From: Gemmatimonadota bacterium
GTDB lineage: Bacteria; Gemmatimonadota; Gemmatimonadetes; Gemmatimonadales; GWC2-71-9
Assembly (NCBI GenBank): GCA_024641745.1
Contig: JAHECL010000009.1
Location: forward strand, 1 to 40,626
DNA: 40,626 bases
Direction: 5' to 3'
The notes beneath the pieces were generated by a model. It was not told where the DNA came from. It was given only the letters and a program-made list of their open reading frames with translations, and ran no database searches. The position numbers and the translations under genes are program-made. Below are positions 26,487 to 37,785 of the stretch, piece by piece; positions within the stretch are counted from its first letter, which is position 1, and each line of letters begins with the position of its first letter.

Positions 26487-28112
26487 TTACTTCACCAGCT
26501 CGACTTCGGTCGGCCGCCAGCTCTTGTCGAAGAACGACTCCAGCGGGCTGTACAGCCGAAGGATCGTGAACCAACCCTTGGCCGGATCGGTCTGGATCCA
26601 GTTGCCACGATCCACCCCGGCAGGCTGCGTCGGGCCGAAGTAGATGGTAGTCGAGCCATCGGGGCTCGCCTTGGCCGCCGGTGACGGATAGCTCTGGCTG
26701 CCGGCACGGGGATAGAGCTGGGGGGTGGCGAGCATCGAGCGGGTCTGGTTGTCATACAGAGTGAACGACCAGAACGCCCGGGCGGGGATGTTGGGCGGAA
26801 GGGTCACCTTGTACGTCTTGGCGCCGTCGAACGGATTCTTGTTGGCGTCGAGGAAGCCCATCAGGTACTGCGAGCCGACGCCGGGGATCCGCATGATCAT
26901 GCCGGGTGAATCGAGCGTGTAGCCGTAGTAGAAGGCGGTGCGCGACGCGAGCGTGCGCGCGCCGGTGGGGGGCAGCGGCTTGAACATCCCTTCCTTGGTG
27001 AACATCGGGGGGGGCGTCTCGAAGAAGGCGCCGCCCTCCCAGAGCATGCTGCTCCATGCGGAGCCGGGGTAGTACGACCAGCCGAGCGACTCGAACGGCC
27101 GCCAGTTCAACACCCGGCCGGTCGCGTTCCCGACAGCGGCCGCCTCGGTGAGGAGCTTCTTCATTCGGGCGTCAGGATTGAACGGCTTCCCCTTCACGAT
27201 CCCGATGGCCGCCATCTGGCCGGCGAGTTCCACATCGTAGCTGGTGGCCGGCTCTTCCTGCACGGTGGCGTTGATCATCTCAAAGAACGAGTAGTCGCTG
27301 GGCGGGATGGTGTTGAAGACCCGATTCGAACCCTCGATGAATTTCATCTCGGGAACCGGCGGATTCTGCGCGATCCGGACCGTCCCCTCGAGCGCGGTAG
27401 CGATGCTCGTTCCCTCGGCTCCTGGCGTGTAGGGATAGATCTTCATGTACTTCTTGATCATGGCGACGGCCGGCTTCGGGTCGTTGTCGACCAGGTAGGC
27501 CCGGGCGGCGTACAGTGCATGTACGGTGCTCGACCGGGCGATGTAGAAGCCGCCTTCGGGCAGCGGGCCATCATAGCCCGGAGGCAGGATGAGATACCGG
27601 CCGCCCTCTCCGCGATCAGGACCGGGGGTGCCGATGTCGATGATCCAGGAGAACCACATGTCGTTGATGGTGCCGACCGACTTGGGCGGCTGCTCAATGA
27701 CGATCGGACCCTTGGTGAGGTCAAGGATGGAGAGATAGTAGATGGTGTCTGCATTGCCGGTCAGGAAGACCGATTTCGAGTTCATCAACTCCGAGAAGAT
27801 GACCACGTCGTTGCCCGCCGCGCCGAGGCTGTAGAACCCCGTCCGCAGGGCATATGCGGACGCGCCCCGAAAACTGTTGTTATAGACGTTGAGGGCGTTC
27901 GTAAAGGCCAGCGCGGAGTACACCGCGTCGGCGGTCGCGGCCGTCGGGGCGCCGTCCTTGAACTCGAGGGTGCCGAACCGGCTGTCCATCTTGGCCGGGG
28001 CGCCGAGAGACTGGACTGGGGCGGGGGGGAGGGCGGGAGCTTGGGCCTCGATGGCTCCTGCGGTGGTTGCGACGAGAATGAGTGAGAGGGTCGTGCTGAG
28101 CGTCGTTCGCAT
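26487..28112 (-). CDS. Secreted DUF1254/DUF1214 domain protein
   Basis: A 541-aa exported protein of unknown role. The signal peptide is roughly residues 1-24 (MRTTLSTTLSLILVATTAGA). The N-terminal half carries the DUF1254 pattern with NTIYYLSILDLTKGPIVIEQPP-like text, reading GNADTIYYLSILDL here. The C-terminal DUF1214 has ARAFWSFTLYDNQTRSML, then GSTTIYFGPTQPAGVDRGNWI and GWFTILRLYSPLESFFDKSW. It converges with priA, 5 bases apart. The start is divergent from the TIGR00300 gene. Family members are often near sulfatases, and one lies 3 kb away on the same strand. Confidence 0.9.
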   Translation of the reverse strand: MRTTLSTTLSLILVATTAGAIEAQAPALPPAPVQSLGAPAKMDSRFGTLEFKDGAPTAATADAVYSALAFTNALNVYNNSFRGASAYALRTGFYSLGAAGNDVVIFSELMNSKSVFLTGNADTIYYLSILDLTKGPIVIEQPPKSVGTINDMWFSWIIDIGTPGPDRGEGGRYLILPPGYDGPLPEGGFYIARSSTVHALYAARAYLVDNDPKPAVAMIKKYMKIYPYTPGAEGTSIATALEGTVRIAQNPPVPEMKFIEGSNRVFNTIPPSDYSFFEMINATVQEEPATSYDVELAGQMAAIGIVKGKPFNPDARMKKLLTEAAAVGNATGRVLNWRPFESLGWSYYPGSAWSSMLWEGGAFFETPPPMFTKEGMFKPLPPTGARTLASRTAFYYGYTLDSPGMIMRIPGVGSQYLMGFLDANKNPFDGAKTYKVTLPPNIPARAFWSFTLYDNQTRSMLATPQLYPRAGSQSYPSPAAKASPDGSTTIYFGPTQPAGVDRGNWIQTDPAKGWFTILRLYSPLESFFDKSWRPTEVELVK

Positions 28113-30998: not shown

Positions 30999-32561
30999 CT
31001 AGTTGTTCGGTGCTCCGGCGCTCGCCAGGGCCTCGAGTGCGTTGTCGAGCGAGAAGCTGCCTGCCTTCTGGCTCGGGGGAAACTCCTTGAAGGTGCTCAG
31101 GAATCGGGCCACGTACTGTTGCGCCGGTACCATGACAAAGGCGTGCTCGACCCGCCACTTGTCATAGCCGATGGCCTCCGTGTCACCAATTTCGAAGGGA
31201 TCGGACCGCAGGTTGAAGAGCTTCGGGAGGCGGAGGGCGACGAACGGCTCCTGCCACACGTCAAACCCCTCGGCGCGCTGCTCCATGAAGACCACCTTCC
31301 ACTGGTTGTACCGCAGCCCCACCAGCGATCCGTCGTCATTGAAGTAGAAGAAGTCCTTCCGGGGTGACGCGGCCTTCCCGCTGAAGTAGTCCGTCATGTT
31401 GTACCCGTCGAGGTGCACCTTGAAGGTCTTGTTGCCAACCTTGGACCCTGTGAGGAGCTGTTCCTTGACGTCGGGATTCCCCGCTGCGGCCACCAGGGTC
31501 GGCAGCCAGTCCTCGTGGGACACAATGTCGTTGAGGATGGTGCCGGGCTGCACGGTGCCGGGCCAGCGGATCATTCCGGGGACCCGGAAGGCGCCCTCCC
31601 AGTTGGTGGCCTTCTCGTTGCGGAAGGGCGAACTCCCGCCGTCGGGCCAGGAGAACTTCTCGGCGCCGTTGTCGGTGGAGTACGCCACGATGGTGTTGTC
31701 GGCGATGCCGAGGCTGTCGATCAGGTTGAGCAGGGTGCCGATCATCTTGTCATGTTCGACCATCCCGTCGGCGTAGACGCCCAGGCCGGTCACGCCTTCG
31801 CTCTCCGGTTTCAGGTGGGTCCAGATGTGCATCCGGGTGGAGTTGAACCAGACGAAGAACGGCTTGCCGTCCTTGTGGGCCTGCTTGATGAACGCCACCG
31901 CTCCCGCGAGGAACTCCTCGTCCACCGTCTCCATCCGCTTCTTCGTCAGCGGGCCGGTGTTCTCGATCCGCTGGCTGCCGTTCGGGAGCGCCCAGCTGTG
32001 GAGGACGCCGCGCGGGGCGAACTTGGCGCGGAAGGCGGGATCCTTGGGGTAATCGGGGTTCTCTGGCTCTTCCTCCGCATTGAGGTGATACAGCGAGCCG
32101 AAGAACTCGTCGAAGCCGTGCATGGTCGGCAGCATCCTGTCGAGGTCGCCGAGGTGGTTCTTGCCGAACTGGCCGGTCGCGTACCCCAGCGGCTTCAGCA
32201 GTTCCGCGATGGTGACATCGTCGTCCTGCAGCCCTTCGCTGGCCCCGGGAAGCCCGACCTTGAGGAGCCCGGAGCGAAACGGACTCTGGCCGGTCAGGAA
32301 GGCGCCGCGGCCGGCGGTGCAGCTCTGCTGCCCGTAGAGGTCGGTGAAGAGGGCGCCTTCATGGGCGATCCGGTCGATGTTGGGGGTCTTGTACCCCATC
32401 TGACCGAGGTTGTAGGCGCTGACGTTCCAGTATCCGACGTCGTCACCCCACATCACGAGAATGTTGGGCTTCGTCGTGGCCTTCTTGCCGCCCTGTTGGG
32501 CATGCACGGGCAGTGCGATGGCCAGTGTGAGAGTGAGGGCGAGCAGTGCAAGTCTTCTCAT
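30999..32561 (-). CDS. Secreted arylsulfatase, formylglycine type
   Basis: Hydrolyses sulfate esters in the periplasm or outside. The protein is 520 aa, with a signal peptide ending near LPVHAQQ (residue 22). The metal-site residues are in MWGDD (37-41), the formylglycine site is Cys81 in CTAGRGAFLTGQ (C-x-A-x-R form), GKNHLGD carries Lys/His ligands, and YSTDNGAEK holds the Asp/Asn pair. Activity would need a formylglycine-generating enzyme, which is not in the window. The GGAGG ribosome-binding site lies 9 bases upstream of the ATG. The substrate is unknown. Confidence 0.94.
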   Translation of the reverse strand: MRRLALLALTLTLAIALPVHAQQGGKKATTKPNILVMWGDDVGYWNVSAYNLGQMGYKTPNIDRIAHEGALFTDLYGQQSCTAGRGAFLTGQSPFRSGLLKVGLPGASEGLQDDDVTIAELLKPLGYATGQFGKNHLGDLDRMLPTMHGFDEFFGSLYHLNAEEEPENPDYPKDPAFRAKFAPRGVLHSWALPNGSQRIENTGPLTKKRMETVDEEFLAGAVAFIKQAHKDGKPFFVWFNSTRMHIWTHLKPESEGVTGLGVYADGMVEHDKMIGTLLNLIDSLGIADNTIVAYSTDNGAEKFSWPDGGSSPFRNEKATNWEGAFRVPGMIRWPGTVQPGTILNDIVSHEDWLPTLVAAAGNPDVKEQLLTGSKVGNKTFKVHLDGYNMTDYFSGKAASPRKDFFYFNDDGSLVGLRYNQWKVVFMEQRAEGFDVWQEPFVALRLPKLFNLRSDPFEIGDTEAIGYDKWRVEHAFVMVPAQQYVARFLSTFKEFPPSQKAGSFSLDNALEALASAGAPNN

Positions 32562-32639: not shown

Positions 32640-35177
32640 CTAGAAACTCACCACGCCGAAGAAACTCAGCGTGCTCCGCGTCACGCTTGGCTGGGAATCG
32701 AATCCCAGCAGCGCCGCGTTCTGGAAGGACACGCCCAGCTGGCTGGAGTACGAGGCCCACTCCCCCTTCAGGCTGAGGTCGGTCCCGCGGAAGAGCGGCG
32801 CATTGCTCCGCAGCAGGAAGAACTCGACGCCGGCGCCCCAGTGCCAGGTGTTGGGCCAGAGGTTGCTGTTGGGGAAGAAGGTCGGCTGCCGGATCCAGGG
32901 ACCATCGGGATCGGTCAGCGGGACTCCGTCGGTGGCAAGATCCGTCACCTGGTACCAGCTCCAGCCCCAGCCGCCGGTCAGGTAGGGCTGCAGCCCGCCG
33001 GTCAGGATGTTGTACCGGATGCTGCTCGCCAGTTCGTAGAACTTCAAATTGCCGGTGACGTCGAACGGGTCGTCCGGCCGGCCGGTGATCGGAAGGGTGA
33101 TCGACAGCCCGCTGTTGGAGTGGTGATAGGTGTTCTCGGTCACCCACCGCTTGCCGAGATAGAAGCTCACCTGCACCGCGAAGGCGGTCGCATTGTCCGC
33201 CACGTCGACCTCCTCGCCCCCCGGATTGAGCGCGGGGTCGGCGGCGGCGTAGCGGGCGAGAATCGTATCGAGCTGTGGCCCGAAGAGGAGGAGCGCGGTC
33301 CAGTTGGAGTCCATCTGGCTCGTCGTGACGCCTGCGCCCACCGAGACCACCCGGACGGGGAGCTCCGCCTTCGGGTAGTACTGGGTGGGAAACTTGCCGA
33401 AGAGGCGGCGGACCGGAAGGAGCAGCACCTTGTAGATGACGTCGATCGGCGGCAGGCTGATCAGCGCCACGATCGGCGCGTTCAGGTATCCGAGGTTGTT
33501 CTGGACCTGGTCGAGCGGAGATCCGGTGATGATGGCGTGCAGCCGGTGCGGGTCGTAGAGGTGATAGCCGCCCGCCCCGGCGCCACTCCGGTTCCAGCCG
33601 CCGTTATAGGTGACGGTGAACGGCGCCAGGTTGCCCGTCTCGGCGTGGCTGACGATGCCGGCAAACGGCGACTTCGCGGCGGGGAACCCTGACCGGATGG
33701 GCAGGACGAACCACGCCCACTCCTTCCGGAACTCGGGGTCGGCATACACCTGCTGGTACACCCGCTCCCAGTCCGGCAGCAGCTTCACGCGCGAGGCCGA
33801 GTCGAACGGCTCGACCCAGTCGGGGAGCGCTGCGCCTCCGGTCAGGTATGCCTGGTGGTCGAACTCCTTCTTGACCTCCTCGGCGGCATCGGCGGGGCCG
33901 ATCTTTTCGTAGATGCCGGCGAAGGGATAGGTCCCGTGCCCGTCCTGGTTGTGGGCGCCGGGGGAGTAGAGAAAGAGGTCGAGTCCCTTGCTGTTCGCCC
34001 CGATGTAGGCGATCGGGTGGGTGTTGGGGACCGTCTCCGCCGTGTCGGCCCAGGCGCGGTAGCGGACGACCGCGGCGATCTCGGCGGCGCCGATCTTGTC
34101 CCGGGCGGCGGCCTGCGCCTGCCGCCGCCACTCGGGGCGCGGCGCGTAGGCGTTCGGTGCGCTGTAGTCGACCGGCATGACGTTTTCGTGGAAGTAGTAG
34201 TCGATCCGCCGGATCACCAGCGGATCCGGCCCGCCCAGCCCCTCCGGCGTGCGCTGAAGCAGCGCCGCCACCCCGGCGGCCGTCAGCGGCGCGGTCACCC
34301 CGGAGAGGGGACTCACGACGACATTGATGTGCTCCCAGTCGCCCTCGTGCTTGTTGCCGGCGTCGTTGTAGGGGTAGAAGAACCAGTACTGCATGATGAA
34401 CTCGTAGCGCGCCTCGGCCTCGCCGTCCACCATCACCGGCGCGATGAACGGGTGGACGTAGACGCCGATCGCCGGATCGAACTCCCGCTTCATCCGCCCG
34501 GTGGACGGGTCCTCGAACGCCGCCTTCCAGGTGGCGGGGTCATAGCCGGGCCAGTTCCAGTACAGGACCGAGAAGGGGTCGTAGTCGGCGTCGACGGCGG
34601 CGGTGTTGAACCGCTCGGCAAGGGGACGGTTCGGGTTGAACTCCTGCAGCAGCTGCAGCACGCGGCAGTCCTCGATCGGCGTCGAGGCGCGTACCATGGA
34701 GAGGAGGCTGTCGCGGTCGACCGACCCGGCGGGGCAGGGGTGCGGGCCGAGCGCCGCGAAGTCCACCGTCTCGGTGCCGAGCAGGCGGGCGCCGGCGTGG
34801 ATGTCCCAGCGGTCCATGGTGAGCAGGGTCGCTCCGCTGATCGCCTGCGCCTTCTGCATGTCGAGCGGGACGTTGCCGGTGTTCCGGATCATGAACGGCG
34901 CGAAGCGGACGCCGAGGGCCTGCAGCAGCTCGCCGCGGGTGTCATCGATGCCGTCCCGCGGCGCGACATCCCGGAAGCCGCTTCCGGTGCGGGCTCCGTA
35001 GAGGTCGAAGACGCTGTCGGGCGCCGTCTGGCGGACGATCCGAGGGTACCCGAGGGGCACATACTGGAAGTACTGCTCCCTGGTCATCCGCGCGTCCTGA
35101 GCGGGCAGGGAGGCGGCCGTCCCGGCGGCGATGGCGATGCCGGCCGCAAGGGTCCGGAGACAGGAGCTGGGCCTCAT
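32640..35177 (-). CDS. Secreted Vps62-like protein with probable C-terminal outer-membrane beta-barrel
   Basis: An 845-aa exported protein with signal peptide up to about LPAQ (residue 27). Residues around 258-290 read EFIMQYWFFYPYND, then HEGDWEHINVVV (277-288), which resembles the GDWEH core of the Vps62/DUF946 family. The C-terminal third (from about 600) alternates polar and aromatic residues: VSVGAGVTTSQMDSNWTALLLF, YELASSIRYNILTGGLQPYLTGGWGWSW and LSLKGEWASYSSQLGVSF. It ends STLSFFGVVSF, with the terminal Phe expected of beta-barrels. It starts 11 bases after the SIMPL gene, with gaggggaa upstream. The function is unknown and the Vps62 match is by eye. Confidence 0.7.
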   Translation of the reverse strand: MRPSSCLRTLAAGIAIAAGTAASLPAQDARMTREQYFQYVPLGYPRIVRQTAPDSVFDLYGARTGSGFRDVAPRDGIDDTRGELLQALGVRFAPFMIRNTGNVPLDMQKAQAISGATLLTMDRWDIHAGARLLGTETVDFAALGPHPCPAGSVDRDSLLSMVRASTPIEDCRVLQLLQEFNPNRPLAERFNTAAVDADYDPFSVLYWNWPGYDPATWKAAFEDPSTGRMKREFDPAIGVYVHPFIAPVMVDGEAEARYEFIMQYWFFYPYNDAGNKHEGDWEHINVVVSPLSGVTAPLTAAGVAALLQRTPEGLGGPDPLVIRRIDYYFHENVMPVDYSAPNAYAPRPEWRRQAQAAARDKIGAAEIAAVVRYRAWADTAETVPNTHPIAYIGANSKGLDLFLYSPGAHNQDGHGTYPFAGIYEKIGPADAAEEVKKEFDHQAYLTGGAALPDWVEPFDSASRVKLLPDWERVYQQVYADPEFRKEWAWFVLPIRSGFPAAKSPFAGIVSHAETGNLAPFTVTYNGGWNRSGAGAGGYHLYDPHRLHAIITGSPLDQVQNNLGYLNAPIVALISLPPIDVIYKVLLLPVRRLFGKFPTQYYPKAELPVRVVSVGAGVTTSQMDSNWTALLLFGPQLDTILARYAAADPALNPGGEEVDVADNATAFAVQVSFYLGKRWVTENTYHHSNSGLSITLPITGRPDDPFDVTGNLKFYELASSIRYNILTGGLQPYLTGGWGWSWYQVTDLATDGVPLTDPDGPWIRQPTFFPNSNLWPNTWHWGAGVEFFLLRSNAPLFRGTDLSLKGEWASYSSQLGVSFQNAALLGFDSQPSVTRSTLSFFGVVSF

Positions 35178-35188
35178 GCTGGTTCCCC

Positions 35189-35923
35189 TCAGTCCTTCAG
35201 GAAGTATTCGACGGTGCTCACCACACGCACCCGCTTGGCGATCTGGCTCTGCTCGCTGATGCCCGGGGCCTGGTCCCGGGCGAGGATCTCGAAGACCCCC
35301 TGGTTGGCGCGCCGGATGCCGCCAAGCCGACTTTTCGAGTCGCTGGCGAACTGATCGGCGGATGCCCGGGCCCGTGCGGTCGCCTCGGCGATCATCTGGG
35401 GCTTGAGGTCGCTCAGGCCGGAGAAGACGAAGGTCGGCCCGCCGCCGCCGTATTCCTGGCCCGAGGAGAAGACGACGCCGGCCTGGACCAGTTCCCCCAC
35501 CTTCTGGCTGGCCGCCAGGATCCCCGCCGGGTCGCCGCTCCGGACCATCAGCGTCTGATTGATCACATACCGCGTCACGACGTCAGAGTTCCGGTACTGG
35601 TTGGTGAAGGCGTCGGCCACCGAGAATGACTGCAGCTCGGTCAGCGTGGTATCGATGCCCTGCCGCGCCAGGAAGGTGCGAATCAGTCCCAGCTGCGTCT
35701 CGAGCCGCGCATACGCCCGGGTGAGGTCGTTGTCGCTCACCACCAGCCGCAGCGGCCAGAGCGCGAGATCGGCCTGGGCGTCGCGCTCGGAAATGCCCTT
35801 GACCGTCACGTACCGGTCGGCGGCCCGGCTGGCGGCGAGGCCGGCGCCGGCCAGCCATCCCCCGGCGGCGAGGCCGAGGGCGAGGACGACGGCGCCAACG
35901 ACGACTGGTTCGAGCTTCTTCAT
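35189..35923 (-). CDS. SIMPL domain (DUF541) membrane-anchored protein
   Basis: A 244-aa protein from ATG 35923, chosen for GGAG 6 bases upstream; ATG 35935 and TTG 35947 are alternatives. An N-terminal uncleaved-looking anchor (VVVGAVVLALGLAAGGWLAGAG, in two stretches) is followed by the SIMPL pattern: RYVTVKGISERDAQADLALWPL, then DVVTRYVINQTLMVRS and VGELVQAGVVF. Then LKPQMIAEATARARASADQFA and a typical end RVRVVSTVEYFLKD. Proteins of this family face the periplasm, and their role is poorly known. The gene lies 36 bases after the ABC gene and 11 before the Vps62-like gene. Confidence 0.9.
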   Translation of the reverse strand: MKKLEPVVVGAVVLALGLAAGGWLAGAGLAASRAADRYVTVKGISERDAQADLALWPLRLVVSDNDLTRAYARLETQLGLIRTFLARQGIDTTLTELQSFSVADAFTNQYRNSDVVTRYVINQTLMVRSGDPAGILAASQKVGELVQAGVVFSSGQEYGGGGPTFVFSGLSDLKPQMIAEATARARASADQFASDSKSRLGGIRRANQGVFEILARDQAPGISEQSQIAKRVRVVSTVEYFLKD

Positions 35924-35959
35924 CCGATGCTCCATCGTGGATGGCAATCCCCTTGCCAG

Positions 35960-37708
35960 TCAGACTTCCAGCTGTGCCTCGATCTCCTGCCGACGGAGAA
36001 GTTCCCAGTATCGGCCGCCCGCCGCAAGGAGGTCGGCGTGGACCCCTTCCTCGACCACCCTCCCCCCATCCAGCACGATGATCCAGTCGGCGTCGCGGAC
36101 AGCGGCGAGCCGGTGCGAGATGATGACGCTCGTCCTGCCCGCCAGCGCGTCGCGCAGCCCGGCCAGGATCTGTGCCTCGGTGTGGGCGTCCACCGCGCTC
36201 AGCGCGTCGTCGAGGATGAAGACCGGGGGGTCCTGGGCCAGCGCCCGGGCGATCGCGGCCCGCTGCTTCTGGCCGCCGCTGAGGTTGATACCCCGCTCCC
36301 CCAGCATAGTGTCATATCCGTTCGGAAGCTCCGGCAGCGCCTCGGCAAGCCGGGAGACCCCGGCGACCCGCTCGAGCCGGCCGTCGTCGGGGGCGCCGAG
36401 CAGGATGTTCTCGCGCACCGTGGCGCTGAAGAGGAAGGTCTCCTGCGGCACCACGCCGAGGTTGCCGCGCAACTCCTCCAGCGACAGGGCGCGGATGTCG
36501 ATCCCGTCCAGCAGCACCTGCCCCCGGTCCGGATCGTAGCTTCGGGCGAGCAGCTCGGCCACCGTCGACTTCCCGGAGCCGGTGGCCCCCACGATCGCCA
36601 GGGACTGACCTGCCTCGACCCGGAACGAGACGTCCTGCAGCACCCACCCGCGGTCCTCGGCCCCGGGGTACCGGAACCAGACGTGCTCGAGCGCGAGGTG
36701 CCGGGCGCCCCGCCGGGGCGGGAGGACGGCGGGGTTGCTCGGCGAGCTGATGGCAGGGTGCTCCCGGAAGAGGGCGTTGATGCGGCCCATGGCGGCCTCG
36801 CCGCGCTGGACCAGCGTGACCGCCCACCCCAGCGCGATGAGCGGCCAGGCGAGCATCAGCAGGTAGACACCGAAGGCCACGTATTCCCCGACGGTGACCG
36901 TCCCGGCCATCACGAGGCGGCCCCCGACCGCGAGCACCACCACGCCGCCGAGCCCGGCGAGGAGGGCGAGCAGGGGGTGGAAGGCGCCCTGCGCCTTTGC
37001 CAGGGCGACGTTGCGCGTCCGGTACTCGTCGTTGAGGAGCCGGAATTCGTCGGTCTCCGCCGCTTCCTGCCGGTAGGCGCGGACGATCCGGAGGCCGGAG
37101 ATGTGCTCGTGGACGTGGGTGGACATGGCACTGAACTGCTCCTGGATGGCCAGGGAGCGCCGGTGGATCTGCTGCCCCAGCGAAATCATCACGATGGGGA
37201 GGCCGAGGAGCGGCATCAGCGCCAGCAGCGTGAGCCGCGGGCTCATGGCCAGCATGGCGGGGAGGATCATCCCGACCCGGACCGCCGTGTCCACCATGTA
37301 CATCAGCGCCGGCCCCGCCGCCATCCGGGCGGCGAGGAGGTCGTTGGTGGACCGCGACATCAGGTCGCCGGTGGAGGAGCGGTCGTAGAAGGCGGGAGAG
37401 AGCCGCTCGAGCTTCTGGAAGAGGTCGTTCCGGAGGTCGAATTCCACCCAGCGGCTGGCGCTGTTGAGGAGCTGCCGCATCCCGAACCGGGCGGTGCCTC
37501 CGAGCAGCGTGACCCCGACGAGGAGGAGGGCGGTGCGGGTGACGGCGGAGGGCGGGGCGCCGCGGTCGATCAGGTTGATGCCGCGCTCGAGGATCCTGGG
37601 CCCGTAGGTGATGAGCGCGTTCGACACCACGACCAGGAGCATGCCGAGGCCGTAGGTCTTCCGGTAATTTGTGAGGTAGGGCACAAGCGCCCGGAGGTCC
37701 CTCAGCAT
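35960..37708 (-). CDS. ABC transporter, fused permease/ATPase half-exporter
   Basis: Type IV-fold exporter half of 582 aa from ATG 37708 (gtggaaag upstream); the track start at 37771 is less likely. There are six hydrophobic segments in the first 300 residues. ATPase domain: Walker A GATGSGKST near 373-381, Q-loop VVPQETFLFSATVRENIL, signature LSGGQKQR near 475 and H-loop ISHRLAA. The Walker B reads FILDDALSAVD: Asp500 is followed by Asp501 where Glu is expected. This occurs in one half of heterodimeric exporters such as MdlA/BmrC types. No second half is adjacent. It leads an operon with the SIMPL and Vps62-like genes. The substrate is unknown. Confidence 0.93.
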   Translation of the reverse strand: MLRDLRALVPYLTNYRKTYGLGMLLVVVSNALITYGPRILERGINLIDRGAPPSAVTRTALLLVGVTLLGGTARFGMRQLLNSASRWVEFDLRNDLFQKLERLSPAFYDRSSTGDLMSRSTNDLLAARMAAGPALMYMVDTAVRVGMILPAMLAMSPRLTLLALMPLLGLPIVMISLGQQIHRRSLAIQEQFSAMSTHVHEHISGLRIVRAYRQEAAETDEFRLLNDEYRTRNVALAKAQGAFHPLLALLAGLGGVVVLAVGGRLVMAGTVTVGEYVAFGVYLLMLAWPLIALGWAVTLVQRGEAAMGRINALFREHPAISSPSNPAVLPPRRGARHLALEHVWFRYPGAEDRGWVLQDVSFRVEAGQSLAIVGATGSGKSTVAELLARSYDPDRGQVLLDGIDIRALSLEELRGNLGVVPQETFLFSATVRENILLGAPDDGRLERVAGVSRLAEALPELPNGYDTMLGERGINLSGGQKQRAAIARALAQDPPVFILDDALSAVDAHTEAQILAGLRDALAGRTSVIISHRLAAVRDADWIIVLDGGRVVEEGVHADLLAAGGRYWELLRRQEIEAQLEV

Positions 37709-37785
37709 ATCTTTCCACTGTTCGGGTGCCGCAATGTCGCCGGGCGCGCCTGCGTCCGGCAAGACGACCATCCAGGAGCTCCACC
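37709..37785. promoter_or_regulatory. Divergent promoter region between ABC operon and lipoprotein
   Basis: On the - strand TTGCCG followed 18 bases later by GACATT is a possible promoter for the ABC operon. On the + strand no clear boxes are seen, although aggag precedes the lipoprotein ATG. Confidence 0.3.

Follow-up and report, generated by a model that had tools for sequence, protein, structure and literature searches.

Does a bacterial gene encode a Vps62-like domain fused to an outer-membrane beta-barrel, and what could such a protein do? The question arises from a stretch of 40,626 nucleotides of a Gemmatimonadota genome, hereafter called the window, in which a first-pass annotation based on the sequence alone had pointed to a protein with a Vps62-like motif and C-terminal strands ending in Phe. 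The open reading frame runs from 35177 to 32640 on the minus strand, begins with ATG, and encodes 845 amino acids; its reading frame was confirmed, and the gene is present in one copy in the host genome.

Architecture of the protein

The full protein was modeled with AlphaFold using 32 family sequences (mean pLDDT 85.9, pTM 0.82), and the N-terminal domain was modeled separately (residues 30 to 602, pTM 0.92). Input to these predictions came from the window and the related-locus search, loci taken from genome searches being left out. All features of the gene lie on the minus strand. The translation begins with a predicted signal peptide at residues 1 to 27 (MRPSSCLRTLAAGIAIAAGTAASLPAQ; 35097..35177), which appears in the model as a hydrophobic helix at residues 4 to 22 followed by a low-confidence break at residues 23 to 28. 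A Vps62/NLP-superfamily domain with large family-specific insertions, supported by the model, Foldseek, and hhalign, occupies residues ∼30 to 547 (33537..35090). A helical linker at residues 548 to 605 (33363..33536; modeled helices 554-557, 563-574, 578-585, and 587-592) leads to an eight-stranded outer-membrane beta-barrel at residues 611 to 845 (32643..33347), identified from the model, Foldseek, and hydropathy, whose last residue is Phe845. This anatomy of an N-terminal domain and a C-terminal barrel is well supported. Cys148 and Cys171 are invariant in 14 aligned members from the phylum, which suggests a disulfide, in keeping with an exported domain.

The barrel consists of eight long strands in the AlphaFold model (residues 611-622, 663-674, 678-695, 705-723, 729-749, 777-789, 800-813, and 831-844). 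When the C-terminal strands were compared to the PDB with Foldseek, OprG (2x27, E 1.1e-5), OmpA, OmpW, Ail, and NspA were among the best matches, at E values from 1e-5 to 1e-3, with OprG and OmpW as the best barrel matches; the barrel surmised in the first-pass annotation is thus borne out. Hydropathy alternation is 2.8 to 4.7 in the barrel strands versus 1.3 to 2.9 in strands of the soluble part. Among 38 complete fusions, the last residue is Phe in 30, Tyr in 5, Trp in 1, and Ile in 2, that is, aromatic in 36/38, and the soluble relatives described below have R, P, K, Y, and other residues at this position. The Pfam family PF13505 was matched weakly by 3/32 long and 6/6 short members.

The eight amphipathic strands and the aromatic C-terminal residue are shared with OmpA/OmpW-type barrels. 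OmpA proper, however, carries a C-terminal peptidoglycan-binding domain after its barrel, whereas the present protein stops at the last strand, without a Pfam match to such a domain, and it differs from OmpW, OprG, and OmpA alike in that a periplasmic domain of ∼520 residues precedes the barrel. A periplasmic N-terminal domain followed by a C-terminal barrel is also the arrangement of POTRA-barrel proteins (Omp85/BamA), but those combine 16 strands with POTRA domains, in contrast to the 8 strands and non-POTRA N-terminal domain found here. Type V autotransporters possess a 12-stranded C-terminal translocator rather than eight strands and gave only weak Foldseek matches.

In outer-membrane barrels, long connections usually lie outside and short ones inside. 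The family-average connection lengths between consecutive barrel strands are 42, 3, 8, 5, 26, 9, and 21 residues, and because the connections alternate between long and short, the N terminus is placed in the periplasm. By this predicted topology, the Vps62/NLP-fold domain probably faces the periplasm.

Kinship of the N-terminal domain

The window protein matched no Pfam family at E ≤ 1 and no NCBIfam model, and PF06101, the Vps62 (DUF946) family, was not matched above its cut-off by the window protein or by any of the 32 long, 6 short, and 12 soluble members. In a Foldseek search of a viral-structure library with the domain model as the query, the best match was a Megaviridae "vacuolar protein sorting-associated protein" (E 9.9e-8, probability 1.00, 583 alignment columns), followed by the unnamed M1HG24 (E 4e-5), with all others at E > 0.2. 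Sequence comparison connects the domain to Vps62 through intermediates. The domain aligned to its soluble relatives with hhalign at E 1e-48, reversed and shuffled controls being negative, and locus L020 of the same phylum matched the soluble-relative profile at E 5e-30, searched over 81 frames. L020 in turn matched PF06101 at E 1.9e-4, with 20.4 bits just below the cut-off of 22.1, in an alignment spanning model positions 286 to 430 and including the DWEH hairpin; the same hairpin matched NPP1 at E 0.053. The family profiles also recovered the PF06101-positive loci L023 and L024, both of the phylum, at the YWFFY...H.GDWEH hairpin, in a search space of 81 frames that makes these matches supporting rather than decisive. 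The protein of L020 (45-1421, minus strand) is lipoprotein-like, lacks a barrel, and shows a match to the dysferlin DysF region (E 1.7e-4) at residues 318 to 377, after its Vps62-like domain.

The domain shares with Vps62 its fold, the YWFFY...H.GDWEH hairpin, and a subsequent SH.(S/T)YP motif in the same order, but it is set apart by large insertions, a signal peptide, and a barrel at the C terminus, and the long and short forms stay below the Pfam cut-off. According to published work, the Pfam Vps62 model also covers, in part, a beta-tripod domain that is not related (PMC7613979, PMC8624791). Taken together, the viral fold match and the transitive sequence matches through L020, L023, and L024 uphold the Vps62-like reading, and kinship to Vps62 is well supported.

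The closest solved structures are NLPs, which have a beta-sandwich fold. With the domain alone as the query, the best nine PDB matches in Foldseek were all NLP structures, individually weak and partial (E 0.03 to 0.27, TM 0.22 to 0.39 on the target). NPP1 was matched weakly by 5/12 soluble relatives (best E 0.001). PF05630, the NLP family, was not matched by the window protein, and the best soluble relative scored 19.7 bits against a cut-off of 21. No PDB chain was found when profiles of the family or of the soluble relatives served as the query. The same Asp/His/Asp/Glu order around H-x-x-D-W-E is present in NLPs, but the present domain exceeds theirs more than twofold in length and is membrane-anchored rather than freely secreted. 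Where NLPs have the heptapeptide GHRHDWE, the window protein reads KHEGDWE, with H, D, W, and E in 39/39 domains and the three other positions differing. Kinship to NLPs is likely on these grounds. Because no Pfam cut-off is passed, the domain is a distant Vps62/NLP-superfamily relative and not a member of PF06101 or PF05630. A match of residues 460 to 545 (33543-33800) to beta-2-microglobulin (phmmer against the PDB, E 0.0024) was rejected as chance: with the family profile as the query, the PDB search returned no chain, and the model shows no Ig domain set apart at these residues.

The hairpin stands out by its conservation. The motif D272-x4-H277-E-G-D280-W281-E282 (34332..34364) lies on a strand hairpin; HEGDWEHINVVV corresponds to residues 277 to 288 and KHEGDWEHINVVV to residues 276 to 288 of the 845-residue protein. 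In 39/39 aligned domains from the long, short, and soluble classes, H242, Q263, Y268, P269, N271, D272, H277, G279, D280, W281, E282, H330, G515, N516, and W528 are identical, and H387 and H414 are conserved in 37/39 and 33/39, respectively. The motif and Phe-ending strands noticed in the first pass are hence real features, kept in the 32 long and 6 short complete relatives, with H277, G279, D280, W281, and E282 invariant. In the NLP of Pythium aphanidermatum, Asp93, Asp104, Glu106, and His159 are among the residues holding Mg2+, which helps to bind the sugar head-group of the lipid receptor (PMC6743777, PMC8078777). The shared hairpin suggests that D272, D280, and E282 are equivalent to Asp93, Asp104, and Glu106, respectively. 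Judging by this pattern of conservation, D272, H277, D280, E282, H242, and H330 probably form a divalent-metal site, of which H387 may well be a part.

A conserved family and its gene neighborhoods

Scanning a single genome from each species yielded 61 related loci. Complete long fusions number 32 (∼790 to 915 amino acids, typically ∼830) and complete short ones 6 (622 to 649 amino acids, ∼630), with the same two-part layout. Matches are present in 6/61 close relatives and, across the phylum, in 16/298 genomes sampled; both counts include the window's genome. The 38 complete fusions span at least eight, roughly ten, phyla, mainly Gemmatimonadota, Krumholzibacteriota, and Cloacimonadota, with one or a few hosts each in Acidobacteriota, Bacteroidota, Poribacteria, Latescibacterota, Aminicenantes, Eisenbacteria, Zixibacteria, and others; nearly all host records are metagenome-assembled genomes, so that wrong binning could account for some of the phyla with one member. 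Environmental metagenomes are the main source of the relatives. Pfam, NCBIfam, and PHROGs have no entry that names the family, and no description of a Vps62-like/barrel fusion turned up in the literature collection searched. The fusion noticed in the first-pass annotation is not unique to the window's genome and belongs to a conserved family.

Barrel-less soluble relatives also occur among the related loci, some with type-IX sorting tails. Loci L074 to L086 make up a soluble family (KSB1, Calditrichota, Neomarinimicrobiota, Eisenbacteria, and others) that contains the domain and is not covered by a dedicated Pfam model; at least four copies are present in the genome of isolate RS_7_18. The short forms (L068 to L073) have a lipoprotein-like Cys at the start and a barrel ending in HY[VLF]RF, and with this combination both of their termini would be membrane-anchored.

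When a maximum-likelihood tree was built from the domain, a single branch set each of the three forms (long, short, and soluble) apart from the rest (supports 99/98, 100/99, and 100/99), which indicates that the fusions are stable architectures. The long and short forms have the domain in common (hhalign E 6e-54). Their barrels aligned with 17% probability and E 0.0015 versus E 0.1 to 0.6 for controls, so that homology is not demonstrated, and either a single fusion followed by divergence or two separate fusions could account for the two forms.

In the window, four genes follow one another on the minus strand in the order ABC exporter, SIMPL, barrel fusion, and sulfatase, with gaps of 12, 11, and 78 nt. 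The exporter (35960..37771; ABC_membrane and ABC_tran domain matches) ends 12 nt before the SIMPL/DUF541 gene (35189..35947; PF04402, E 1.6e-17), which lies 11 nt upstream of the fusion's start; the sulfatase (30999..32561; PF00884, E 7.7e-45), which has a signal peptide, begins 78 nt downstream of its stop. The sulfatase and SIMPL genes are likely to be in the same operon as the fusion. The positions of the exporter and sulfatase are kept in both other genomes of the genus, and the exporter is at the same relative position in L027 and L028; in L031, the sulfatase lies 2 kb away. The downstream sulfatase has a CTAGR-type active-site motif. An ordinary DUF1254/DUF1214 protein is encoded at 26487-28112 (minus strand).

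Omp85-superfamily genes adjoin 8 of ∼40 related loci, and these eight cases represent at least four separate lineages. One Omp85 gene family is found beside L029, L034, L036, L037, L039, and L056, and another beside L030 and L068. Genomes carry 4 to 10 Omp85 genes; by our estimate, chance adjacency would be about half a percent per locus, the loci not being independent of one another. The Omp85/POTRA-like neighbors of the first family (L039:8535-10493; also L029, L034, L036, L037, and L056) are 571 to 689 amino acids long, and several fall below the Pfam cut-offs for Omp85 and POTRA. In the window's genus, the Omp85 gene is not adjacent, and the homolog in the window's genome sits on another contig.

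Possible roles of the fusion

From the computed features of the protein, namely, its two domains, the barrel, the superfamily kinship, and the conserved residues, we infer metal binding, a ligand, and a role. After export, the C-terminal 235 residues would fold into an eight-stranded OmpW/OmpA-like barrel, with the terminal Phe serving as a BAM-type insertion signal. Both ends of the barrel would lie on the periplasmic side, holding the Vps62/NLP-fold domain just below the outer membrane. The domain would carry a divalent-metal site (D272, H277, D280, and E282 with H242, H330, and probably H387) and, by analogy to the Mg2+/sugar head-group binding of NLPs, could bind a glycan or glycolipid head-group, such as LPS core, lipid A, or peptidoglycan. 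The recurrent Omp85 neighbors would fit a protein that takes part in assembling the outer membrane or in handling glycolipids. We tentatively favor this reading of a metal-dependent head-group binding module held beneath the outer membrane by its barrel, which is an argument from analogy and stands somewhat short of an even chance. The neighbors in the window count against it, being sulfatase, SIMPL, and ABC exporter genes and not Omp85, as do the partial NLP fold matches, none of them significant by itself; the number of conserved histidines would fit an enzyme too.

The main rival is indeed that the domain, anchored by the barrel, is an enzyme that depends on a metal; it might, for instance, hydrolyze a periplasmic glycan, glycolipid, or phosphodiester. 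The unusually many invariant polar residues (H242, Q263, D272, H277, D280, E282, H330, and, nearly always, H387), the large insertion-rich domain, and the adjoining secreted sulfatase agree with such an activity. However, Pfam, NCBIfam, PDB profile searches, and Foldseek returned no enzyme-family match, and the related NLP fold is not known to have enzymatic activity; we consider an enzyme somewhat less likely than the binding module. A different division of labor would assign the main function to the barrel, as a small OmpW/OprG-like channel that passes hydrophobic or small solutes, with the domain as its periplasmic receptor or gate. OprG and OmpW as the best barrel matches, and the run with an ABC exporter and sulfatase in the window's genus, would suit a channel, but conservation between the long and short forms is far higher in the domain than in the barrel, which would be expected of a barrel that mainly anchors, and we regard this as distinctly improbable. 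The barrel could also work like a small autotransporter that displays the domain on the cell surface, where it would act on other cells like NLPs, the nearest solved folds. Against display stand the 8 rather than 12 strands, the loop lengths that place the domain in the periplasm, the KHEGDWE in place of GHRHDWE, and the mainly environmental origin of the relatives, so that we consider it very improbable.

Returning to the binding-module reading, a broader and more doubtful extension is that these proteins constitute a widespread, unannotated outer-membrane class in which a periplasm-facing Vps62/NLP-fold domain recognizes glycolipids in a metal-dependent manner and works as a pair with an Omp85-type insertase or transporter. 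If this is true, the Vps62/DUF946 fold, whose eukaryotic function is not established, would gain a bacterial counterpart in envelope glycolipid handling.

To the first-pass annotation, the analysis adds the NLPs as the closest solved fold, a predicted periplasmic location of the domain, and the standing of the fusion as a conserved family. Far from being a one-off, the protein belongs to a family that lacks annotation, extends broadly across phyla, and combines two domain types already known. Its soluble domain, with defined site residues, offers a simple construct for testing the biochemistry of the Vps62 fold. The fold and its probable metal site recur across a large group of secreted bacterial proteins that lack annotation, and the uncharacterized Vps62/DUF946 family and the toxin-associated NLPs are here linked to a bacterial envelope setting.
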